In this document: positions 11,984 through 43,269 of the stretch, one piece after another
Layout of the letters: every line of letters starts with the position of its first letter
How positions within the stretch are numbered: position 1 is the stretch's first letter
Origin: Pseudalkalibacillus berkeleyi
GTDB lineage: Bacteria > Bacillota > Bacilli > Bacillales > Fictibacillaceae
Assembly: GCF_021608225.1 (NCBI RefSeq)
Contig: NZ_JAKIJS010000001.1
Span: 806,001-870,000 of the forward strand
DNA: 64,000 nucleotides
Direction of reading: 5' to 3'
Notes under the pieces: model-generated
The model's database searches: none
The model's input: the letters and a program-made list of their open reading frames with translations, nothing else
What the model was told of the DNA's origin: nothing
Translations under genes and position numbers: made by a program

Positions 11984-11997
11984 GGTGTTAACAATAA

Positions 11998-12011
11998 TAA
12001 TAGCGCTTACA
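11998..12011 (+). promoter_or_regulatory. cre-like site (CcpA) in the SR1 5' region
   Basis: TAATAGCGCTTACA matches the catabolite-response consensus TGWAAGCGYTWWCA at 12 of 14 positions. It lies about 10-20 bp downstream of the expected SR1 start, a position suited to blocking transcription. Confidence 0.6.
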
Positions 12012-12036
12012 TTTTAAGCGGGAGAGAGGGATAGAA

Positions 12037-12159
12037 ATGGGAACGTTAATCTGTCAAACATGTGATACGACTATTGAACACTTTGAAGTCAATAAGGTAA
12101 CGACTCTATATGCAAACTGTCCGGAATGTAAACGTAAAAGGAAAAATCTAAAAAAATAA
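12037..12159 (+). CDS. sr1P: SR1P small peptide
   Basis: 40 residues beginning MGTLICQTCD. Cysteine pairs C6/C9 and C28/C31 form a likely small zinc site, and the C-terminus is lysine/arginine-rich. The start MGT(I/L)xCQ, the EHFE-type middle and VTTLY match SR1P of B. subtilis, which binds GapA and promotes its moonlighting role with RNase J1. ATG start with GGGAGAGAGGG upstream. Encoded inside the SR1 RNA. Confidence 0.9.
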   Translation: MGTLICQTCDTTIEHFEVNKVTTLYANCPECKRKRKNLKK

Positions 12160-12175
12160 GTATAACCTAAATGCA

Positions 12176-12210
12176 AAAAGACCGTTCCGATGAAGGGACG
12201 GTCTTTTTGG
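12176..12210. terminator. Bidirectional terminator of SR1 and speA
   Basis: AAAAAGACCGTTCC pairs with GGGACGGTCTTTTT (one G-U pair). Flanking A and T runs suit both strands. Confidence 0.9.
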
Positions 12211-12228
12211 TGAATTCATTTGATCAAG

Positions 12229-41498: not shown

Positions 41499-41912
41499 AT
41501 GGTGAGTAAGCAAGCGAACAATAATGAAAAGGTCGAACAATTCAAGATGTTTGTACGCTCACACCCTGGATTAATCGATCATGTTAAGAACGGTGACCAG
41601 TCATGGCAAGATGTTTTTACTGAATGGAACCTATTAGGTGAAGACCATGAACAATGGGGGAAATATATTGAGCGTAAGATTGGCGTAGCAAGCAAGAAAG
41701 CCAAGAAAAAAACAAATAGTGTCAATGATTTATCTGTCGGTGAATTACTAAACATGTTCAAAAACCTTGATATTGAAGAGGTTAGAGACTATGTTTCTCA
41801 ATTTAGTTCCGCGGTTACTGGCATTCAAGATGTGCTATCACAATTCCAATCCAAAGGACCGACAAGGCCACCAATGAACAGTCATCCATTTAATCAATAT
41901 TTTAAAGATTAA
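41499..41912 (+). CDS. ylbD: YlbD, putative spore coat protein
   Basis: 137 residues, helical, with FKMFVRSHPGLIDHVKNGDQSWQDVFTEWNLLGEDHEQW as in YlbD of B. subtilis, where it is annotated as a coat protein. The Pro-rich tail ends in NQYFKD. ATG 41499 or GTG 41502; GGGGAGG upstream fits both. 18 bp before ylbE. Confidence 0.85.
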   Translation: MVSKQANNNEKVEQFKMFVRSHPGLIDHVKNGDQSWQDVFTEWNLLGEDHEQWGKYIERKIGVASKKAKKKTNSVNDLSVGELLNMFKNLDIEEVRDYVSQFSSAVTGIQDVLSQFQSKGPTRPPMNSHPFNQYFKD

Positions 41913-41930
41913 GGTAAGGGAGCCTGAAAC

Positions 41931-42158
41931 ATGCGTAGGGAAATCATTGATTACTTAGATCAACGTCCAGATTTGAAATATATGATAAGGGAACAACCTG
42001 ACTGGTATAGGAAGTTGTCGAGAAATCCAGCATCAATACAAGAACTTGATGAAGAAGCGAAAACGTTCTATGGTCAAACCTTTGGTCAGAGAATTGACAA
42101 ATTAAGTGGACAAATCGAATCCATTTCTCGTCTTGTACAGTTATTCGGCAAACAATAA
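41931..42158 (+). CDS. ylbE: YlbE-like protein
   Basis: 75 residues: YLDQRPDLKYMIREQPDWYRKLSRNP, then TFYGQTFGQRIDKLSGQI. Matches the YlbE family; function unknown. Pairs with ylbD in one transcription unit. AAGGGAG upstream of the ATG. Confidence 0.85.
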   Translation: MRREIIDYLDQRPDLKYMIREQPDWYRKLSRNPASIQELDEEAKTFYGQTFGQRIDKLSGQIESISRLVQLFGKQ

Positions 42159-42159
42159 T

Positions 42160-42226
42160 CAAGGTTGACTCAAAGTAAAGTGTTTAATACCTAGTTGGTA
42201 TTTAGCACTTGTGAGTCAACCTTTTT
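42160..42226 (+). terminator. Long three-part terminator of ylbDE
   Basis: AAGGTTGACTCA pairs with TGAGTCAACCTT; inside it AAGTG/CACTT and AATACC/GGTATT stack towards a TAGTT loop. Followed by TTT. About 67 nt in all. Confidence 0.88.
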
Positions 42227-42276
42227 GCTGTTGTACAAGCTATATGGATATTTTACTATCATCTCGTGAAAAATAC

Positions 42277-42297
42277 CGGGTGAGGAGGTGTCACCCG
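42277..42297 (+). promoter_or_regulatory. Hairpin presenting the Shine-Dalgarno sequence in its loop
   Basis: CGGGTGA (42277-42283) pairs perfectly with TCACCCG (42291-42297), and the 7-nt loop is GGAGGTG, the ribosome binding site of the lipoprotein gene whose ATG is at 42301. Such a structure could control translation start. Confidence 0.7.
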
Positions 42298-42300
42298 TTC

Positions 42301-42720
42301 ATGGTTAAACGTTTATTTGCGAGTTGTATATGTTTAGGGCTGTTAGTAGGATGCCAATTAGGCAATCAAGAAAAGTTGCAAGTGGTAAATGTGAATGGTA
42401 ATCCAGACTCATTTCAAGCATTGGCGGTTACAAATTCAAAAGTATCGATGACACTACGACATATGATTACGGACAATGATCTCTTTGTAGAGTGTTATAT
42501 TCCTGACTTTAAGTTTACGGATCATAGTAATGACCAATCTGAAGGTGCAGGGTATCTCAAAGTGTCAGTTGACCATCAAAAAGCCTTTTCCGTTAATAAA
42601 GCAGCATTCATTGTAAAGGACTTATCGAAAGGGAATCATCATATTAGTGTTATGTTGGTTAATGCCAATGGAAAGAAAATTAAAGGTATGGAGAAACAAT
42701 TTTTTGTAAACATACCATAA
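42301..42720 (+). CDS. Small lipoprotein with beta-sandwich-like domain, unknown
   Basis: 139 residues. Lipobox LLVGC (C18) after a short basic start. The mature part looks like a small beta sandwich: MTLRHMITDNDLFVECYIPDFKF, then GAGYLKVSVDHQKAFSVNKAAFIVKDLSKGNHHISVMLVNANGKKI. The last pattern recalls secreted Ig-like or copper-handling accessory domains, but I do not recognise a family. ATG 42301 follows the hairpin-borne GGAGGTG. Inserted between ylbE and ylbF relative to B. subtilis. Confidence 0.75.
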   Translation: MVKRLFASCICLGLLVGCQLGNQEKLQVVNVNGNPDSFQALAVTNSKVSMTLRHMITDNDLFVECYIPDFKFTDHSNDQSEGAGYLKVSVDHQKAFSVNKAAFIVKDLSKGNHHISVMLVNANGKKIKGMEKQFFVNIP

Positions 42721-42828
42721 ACCCTTGGGCGTTGTTCGGGCAACAAATTTAGTCAGAAACATGGAAATGTATACCTTAAGTATGGCATAATGAAAGCAGA
42801 CCCAAAGATAAGGGTGGAGGTGTACGTA

Positions 42829-43269
42829 ATGCTTGCAACAATTGAAGGAATTGAAATATTAGATGGAGCAGATGAATTAGCATCCATTGTCGTTCAATCA
42901 GATACTGCAAAAAAATATAAAGAAGCGAAGAAAAATCTTCTCCAAGATAAAGAAGCACAGAGGTTGATCTACGAATTTAGTAAGATGAAAGAGAAGTATG
43001 AAGAAGTACAACGATTCGGTAAATATCATCCTGAGTATAAAACAGTTTCAACAGACATTAGAGTGTTGAAACGTGACATTGATTTGATTCACACTGTGTC
43101 AGATTTCAAGAAGGCTGAGAAGGAATTAGAGAAGCTCCTAAATGAAATTAGTGGCATTTTAGCTGGACAAGTATCTAAGAACATTAAAGTACCAACAGGG
43201 AATCCGTTCTTTGATAATATGTCCTGTGGCGGAGGCTGTGGCTCCGGTGGTTCTTGCGGGTGTGGTTAA
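42829..43269 (+). CDS. ylbF: YlbF/RicF, subunit of the Y-complex
   Basis: 146 residues. Helical YlbF/YmcA domain with VQRFGKYHPEYK and FKKAEKELEKLL, then VPTGNPFFDNMSCGGGCGSGG, ending in a cysteine cluster (C at five positions in the last 18 residues). In B. subtilis it joins YmcA and YaaT in a Fe-S-containing complex that directs RNase Y cleavage and supports competence, biofilm and sporulation. ATG 42829 follows GGAGGTG; earlier in-frame codons are not needed. Own terminator. Confidence 0.93.
   Translation: MLATIEGIEILDGADELASIVVQSDTAKKYKEAKKNLLQDKEAQRLIYEFSKMKEKYEEVQRFGKYHPEYKTVSTDIRVLKRDIDLIHTVSDFKKAEKELEKLLNEISGILAGQVSKNIKVPTGNPFFDNMSCGGGCGSGGSCGCG

Follow-up and report, generated by a model that had tools for sequence, protein, structure and literature searches.

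A candidate read-through translation lock at the forespore-type promoter of a lipoprotein gene in Pseudalkalibacillus berkeleyi

Which RNA carries the hairpin that frames the Shine-Dalgarno (SD) sequence of a small lipoprotein gene of P. berkeleyi, and what would be its effect on translation? The earlier note on this DNA described a loop that is exactly GGAGGTG, closed by a perfect 7-bp stem and ending 3 nt before the ATG of a lipoprotein gene. Coordinates and pairing (7/7 pairs) are confirmed, the hairpin forms in the computed RNA fold and the downstream protein has an LVGC lipobox. The features considered are the following (the window is the whole stretch of 64,000 nucleotides analysed).

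42161..42223, + strand: terminator-like nested inverted repeat in the gap between ylbE and the lipoprotein gene (arms 42161-42172 and 42212-42223, then a T run)
42246..42250, + strand: -35 element GGATA, invariant in 8/8 members of the genus
42266..42275, + strand: -10 element GTGAAAAATA, 15 nt past the -35, its last base being taken as -7
42277-42283, + strand: 5' arm CGGGTGA, of which only the last 2 nt lie at or after the predicted +1
42282, + strand: predicted transcription start (+1), a G within the 5' arm, placed 7 nt beyond the last -10 base
42284-42290, + strand: loop GGAGGTG, i.e., the SD sequence
42291-42297, + strand: 3' arm TCACCCG, occupying the SD-to-start spacer
42301..42720, + strand: lipoprotein gene (139 aa, LVGC lipobox), between ylbE and ylbF

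The hairpin and the forespore-type promoter

The 3' arm is separated from the ATG (42301-42303) by TTC. The overall stability of the 65-nt region around the hairpin is not unusual (z -0.87). With up to 3 mismatches tolerated, the 21-mer of the hairpin occurs once in the 3.5-Mb genome. A 464-kb portion of the same genome yielded 353 genes with an SD, lipoprotein gene included, and this gene alone has its SD in the loop of a stem of at least 6 Watson-Crick pairs; its weighted stem score (19) ranks first of 353, the runner-up reaching 17.5, in a null that contains the gene itself.

A scan of the window with Rfam gives no family at the hairpin, the only matches being the ylbH leader (RF00516, 44576-44729 +, 56.2 bits for a gathering value of 50) and the SR1 sRNA family (11990-12212 +, 48.6 bits for a gathering value of 45). 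On the minus strand (42297-42277), the hairpin followed by GTATTTTTCA is the sole terminator-like site in a scan of 41900-42900 (shuffles: 0.6), and no gene there obviously requires a terminator.

The gene is embedded in a ylbB-ylbC-ylbD-ylbE-[lipoprotein]-ylbF-ylbG-rsmD-coaD stretch. YlbD, YlbE and YlbF are identified by Pfam and the ylbH leader by Rfam; the other neighbours are presumably ylbB, ylbC, ylbG, rsmD and coaD, as judged from gene order. The terminator-like repeat downstream of ylbE has 12-nt arms that are 100% complementary and an inner repeat at 42178-42210; it is absent from the output of the terminator scan and has a loop beyond the limit set there. Such a repeat restricts read-through from ylbE and need not abolish it.

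Orthologues of the lipoprotein are found in 8/8 genomes of the genus and in 175 of the 299 sampled genomes of the order. In the same family, the seven sampled genomes of genus g2 (G008, G011, G013, G015, G017, G019 and G021) give no match to the lipoprotein profile, unlike the other three genera of that family. Pfam and NCBIfam give nothing above the curated cut-offs for this protein (DUF2846: 20 bits, 34.3 being needed). The structure predicted by AlphaFold is a mostly beta domain (pLDDT 79, pTM 0.66), for which a Foldseek search against the PDB finds 0 matches at E<=0.001 and weak resemblances to Ig/PKD/FnIII-like folds; the domain is predicted to be an Ig/PKD/FnIII-like beta sandwich.

The intergenic alignment of the genus shows that GGATA-N15-GnnnAnnnTA is invariant in 8/8 species and lies immediately before the 5' arm. 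The element associates a GNATA-like -35 and a G-N3-A-N-A-N-TA-like -10 that are 14-15 nt apart, letters which we take to be those of the sigma-F/sigma-G consensus. For forespore promoters, PMC5942855 gives a spacing of 14-15 nt (15 nt being usual) and a purine at -7, the numbering adopted here for the last base of the -10. On its sequence, the element is a predicted forespore-type promoter, sigma-F and sigma-G being not separable. Its promoter score is 11.7, the 95th percentile of shuffled sequences being 4.6; this percentile is exceeded in 108 of 112 orthologues (47 genera), on which the model was itself trained. Of 34 held-out loci, 31 score above it, vs. 18 of 170 shuffles. The sister genus carries the same element (GGATA-N15-GAAAAAACTA), as do distant families (GAGTA...GCAAACACTA), in which the downstream sequence is unrelated. 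Similar promoters precede the SASP genes of the genus, e.g., that of L067 in the same genome, the -10 of which ends 25 nt before the ATG, as here. This type of promoter suggests that the lipoprotein is made in the forespore.

The hairpin straddles the predicted transcription start, and its existence as RNA thus depends on the promoter used: the forespore transcript would keep just 2 nt of the 5' arm, so that the hairpin could not form in it. The earlier note had proposed that the hairpin displays the SD or submits it to control by a protein or by temperature. A role in the control of translation is likely. These modes of action, however, need the hairpin in the mRNA of the gene itself, which is doubted because the conserved forespore promoter sets the predicted +1 inside the 5' arm.

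They could be retained if the normal mRNA came from a promoter located farther upstream, the hairpin then displaying or regulating the SD (as an accessible loop, a CsrA-like GGA-loop site, a thermometer or a 5'-stabilising hairpin). This explanation is favoured by the co-varying stem, whose loop coincides with the SD, and by two features consistent with RNA, namely the G-U intermediates and a loop size that changes by 1 nt. A weak TTGTAC-N17-TACTAT is also visible by eye at 42231-42259 in the sequence of P. berkeleyi; this sigma-A-like pair is however missed by the promoter scan and unaligned in the congeners, the conserved pair being the -35 and -10 that adjoin the hairpin. As for CsrA, a GGA is indeed present in the stem loop at the SD and csrA is found in 7 of the 8 genomes of the genus, but the remaining species, G005 (a draft of 160 contigs), combines an 8-pair stem with no csrA match. 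A thermometer would have its SD base-paired in the mRNA, and here the SD is in the loop. With, in addition, no Rfam family at the site, this explanation is considered quite unlikely.

Opening energies and variation of the arms in the genus

The cost of unpairing the SD-to-start region (opening energy) was computed for RNA entering from upstream and for RNA beginning at +1. In P. berkeleyi, it amounts to 12.3 kcal/mol for upstream RNA and to 4.0 kcal/mol for RNA from +1. When the 5' end is moved downstream, the values are 12.2 kcal/mol out to -6, then 11.9 at -5, 10.6 at -4, 7.2 at -3, 5.9 at -2, 4.5 at -1 and 4.0 at +1. Closure thus disappears just upstream of the predicted start. These stem energies leave out ribosomes and co-transcriptional folding.

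Such a profile would correspond to a lock against read-through translation. Transcripts arriving from upstream, through read-through of ylbE or from spurious starts, would, if made, include the 5' arm, in which CGGGTGA would pair with TCACCCG and bury the SD-to-start region; this folding would lower translation in the cell. RNA from the forespore promoter would begin near G42282, lack the 5' arm and leave the ribosome site open. The RNA would fold shut or open according to its start point, and the sigma factor making the RNA would therefore decide its translation. The hairpin would probably block translation only of stray transcripts from upstream, with the benefit that the lipoprotein would be kept out of growing cells and mother cells. 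The lock may be leaky in this genus, since the SD sits in the loop and not in the stem. Against a read-through lock, it must be mentioned that the terminator-like repeat already separates ylbE from the lipoprotein gene. We hold with moderate confidence that the dyad represents one version of a lock on read-through translation, which the choice of promoter opens and the arms of which change between lineages.

The eight species of the genus (P. berkeleyi is G000) fall into three groups: (i) a strong stem in 5/8 (G000, G003, G006, G005 and G001), that of G005 having 8 pairs; (ii) a weak stem of 5 pairs in G007 (swap p 0.06); (iii) no stem in G004 and G002. Paired changes are observed at the fourth pair (G-C, A-T or G-T) and at the outermost pair (C-G or T-A). 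The covariation of the two arms in relatives, proposed in the earlier note as a check, is thus observed: the 3' arms pair best with the 5' arm of their own species (permutation p 0.013 for 8 species; p 0.033 and 0.022 when limited to the 6 species with a stem). Variation of the arms without compensation, which the earlier note regarded as unfavourable, is seen in G004 and G002 only, and both fold the ribosome site onto other upstream arms. Located further upstream, these arms close the site in G002 and G004 with p 0.06 and 0.01, respectively, at 60 nt, those of G002 being TCCCTCAT/ATGAGGGA. In G005 and G007, a second arm (GCACCT/AGGTGC) lies between -35 and -10.

The same dyad could be read as a DNA operator around +1, bound by a forespore regulator (RsfA or SpoVT being possible candidates). 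A position across -10 and +1 is typical for repressor sites and the half-site GGRTG/CAYCC is repeated within the genus. However, the spacing of the half-sites varies by 1 nt among congeners, the arms contain G-T pairs, the dyads of other genera differ in sequence and position, and the effect appears in RNA folding energy vs. controls, so that an operator is very improbable. A GlnR/TnrA-like dyad was put aside, the half-sites being devoid of the outer T/A of that motif. The CsrA site, the thermometer and the DNA operator are all ranked below the read-through lock.

A more general objection is chance: a conserved promoter segment (TATCGGRTGAGG) would fit the spacer in some species and have no function. 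Promoter and SD account for the conservation of the 5' arm, the stem is missing in 2/8 species, and the locus of P. berkeleyi taken alone is only marginal vs. shuffles (p 0.048 with 30 nt, 0.16 with 60 nt, and 0.06-0.26 according to the upstream length) as well as with a segment-swap null (p 0.11). On the other side, pairing with the own arm beats pairing with the arms of congeners, the hairpin is unique among the 353 genes, and an excess of closure is found across the family with clean controls (see below). Chance is accordingly rated as rather unlikely.

Closure of upstream RNA among orthologues and in other forespore genes

The orthologue set consists of the loci fetched (family matches and part of the 175 genomes), i.e., a subset of all orthologues. 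Two of 114 loci (L135 and L213) were dropped for want of a usable SD, leaving 112, and the 4 loci with a promoter score <4.6 were excluded from the lock tests, leaving 108 (45 genera). Starts and promoters were chosen by script, without locus-by-locus inspection. In the shuffle test, the upstream piece is replaced by dinucleotide shuffles.

With 60 nt upstream, the closure excess over shuffles is 3.6 kcal/mol, and 16 of the 45 genera have p<0.05 (24 have p<0.1; KS 1.7e-11). With 30 nt, it is 3.0 kcal/mol, 15 and 19 genera being below 0.05 and 0.1, respectively. Ordinary genes of the same genome give 0.05 kcal/mol at 60 nt (13/250 with p<0.05) and 0.12 kcal/mol at 30 nt (11/220); the orthologue family differs from the 250 control genes by a Mann-Whitney test (7e-12). 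Control genes with non-coding upstream DNA give 0.17 kcal/mol (8/120 with p<0.05). For another forespore gene, gpr, which serves as negative control, the excess is 0.03 kcal/mol and 2 of 23 loci have p<0.05 (7 of 30 having been dropped for lack of a start or SD). The positive control, sigG, reaches 7.1 kcal/mol with 22 of 30 loci at p<0.05.

The excess is found again in held-out loci (31 usable of 34, 3 being dropped for a low promoter score), with 2.9 kcal/mol, 7 of 17 genera at p<0.05 and KS 0.0016; it must be noted that 9 of these 17 genera were already in the first set. Among the 8 held-out genera that are new to the analysis, p is at or below about 0.05 in 3 (g78, g16 and g22; KS 0.15). 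Against the lock, 21 of 45 genera have p>=0.1 at 60 nt, and 7 of 45 have p>0.5. Two further nulls give weaker results: with segment swaps between genera, 9 of 45 genera have p<0.05 (KS 6.6e-5), and swaps between genera evaluated by plain duplex energy are only partly significant (KS 0.069 and 0.0028).

Arm pairs read by eye differ from one locus to another: CTCCTTTCT/AGAAAGGAG in g14, CTCCCAAT/ATTGGGAG in L159, CAGTGCAA/TTGCACTG in L197 and AACACTAACAC/GTGTTAGTGTT in L156. It seems that closure of the upstream RNA is conserved rather than any one sequence.

The same test was applied to the SASP genes of the genus (30 of 57 matches fetched, 29 after L077 was dropped), 7 of which have p<0.05. 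In L080, CACCTCTATTC, located between -35 and -10, is complementary to GAATAGAGGTG at the SD. An arm between -35 and -10 likewise complements the SD region in L075, L076, L081, L083 and L088; five of these six genes have p<0.05, L083 being at 0.06. The arms of the L080 group would be the same kind of promoter-encoded lock. In L071, L079, L082, L085, L087 and L089, together with the L075 group, a leader hairpin (for instance AAAGGTA..TACCTTTT) begins close to the predicted +1; these leader hairpins perhaps stabilise the spore mRNA. On the contrary, gpr shows no lock, unlike sigG, the lipoprotein gene and some SASP genes.

Known systems and biological meaning

The hairpin over the SD resembles CsrA sites (PMC4894983), where GGA is found in hairpin loops; it differs from them by the stem-bearing G005, which gives no csrA match, and by a hairpin probably absent from the main transcript.

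Two systems are closer. In B. subtilis sigG (spoIIIG), according to PMC5942855, complementary sequences form a hairpin that is proposed to block read-through translation and that cannot form in RNA from sigG's own promoter. Both sigG and the lipoprotein gene are preceded by a sigma-F/G promoter (a predicted one for the latter) near the ribosome-binding site (RBS), sigG being a forespore gene. The sigG hairpin is very large (20+ pairs vs. 7-9 pairs at the lipoprotein gene) and sigG has an extra small RBS hairpin within its own leader. The lipoprotein gene also differs by its SD in the loop, by a 5' arm that overlaps the -10/+1 region and by its product, an unrelated lipoprotein. In the T4 phage genes e (lysozyme) and I-TevI, as described in PMC3014915, longer transcripts initiated upstream bury the translation start. 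The 5' strand of this structure is encoded where the late promoters are located, and late RNA is therefore without it. The T4 case concerns phage timing, with an effect measured for gene e (~100-fold), whereas the lipoprotein lock concerns cell type and is computed only.

The lipoprotein gene shares with these systems (i) the closure of RNA entering from upstream, found by computation at the genus and family levels, and (ii) an internal, predicted promoter whose transcript, from its inferred start, omits the 5' arm. On these computed features, it would join the locks of the sigG type and of the T4 gene e type. The literature covered, which comprises few subscription journals, contains nothing on this gene, nor on forespore read-through locks beyond sigG.

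We put forward, as a tentative extension that is possible rather than probable, that promoter-encoded locks generally protect Bacillales forespore genes as a second safeguard: the untranscribed promoter would hold an arm directed against the ribosome site, and locking, not sequence, would be selected, so that arms would be replaced between genera. Compartment specificity in sporulation is usually attributed to sigma factors alone. If the promoter also encodes a silencing arm for transcripts with a wrong start, leak from a neighbouring gene would be harmless, and cell-type specificity would become testable at the level of translation. The sigG case would then be extended to an uncharacterised lipoprotein gene, and other developmental genes could be screened with a simple computation.
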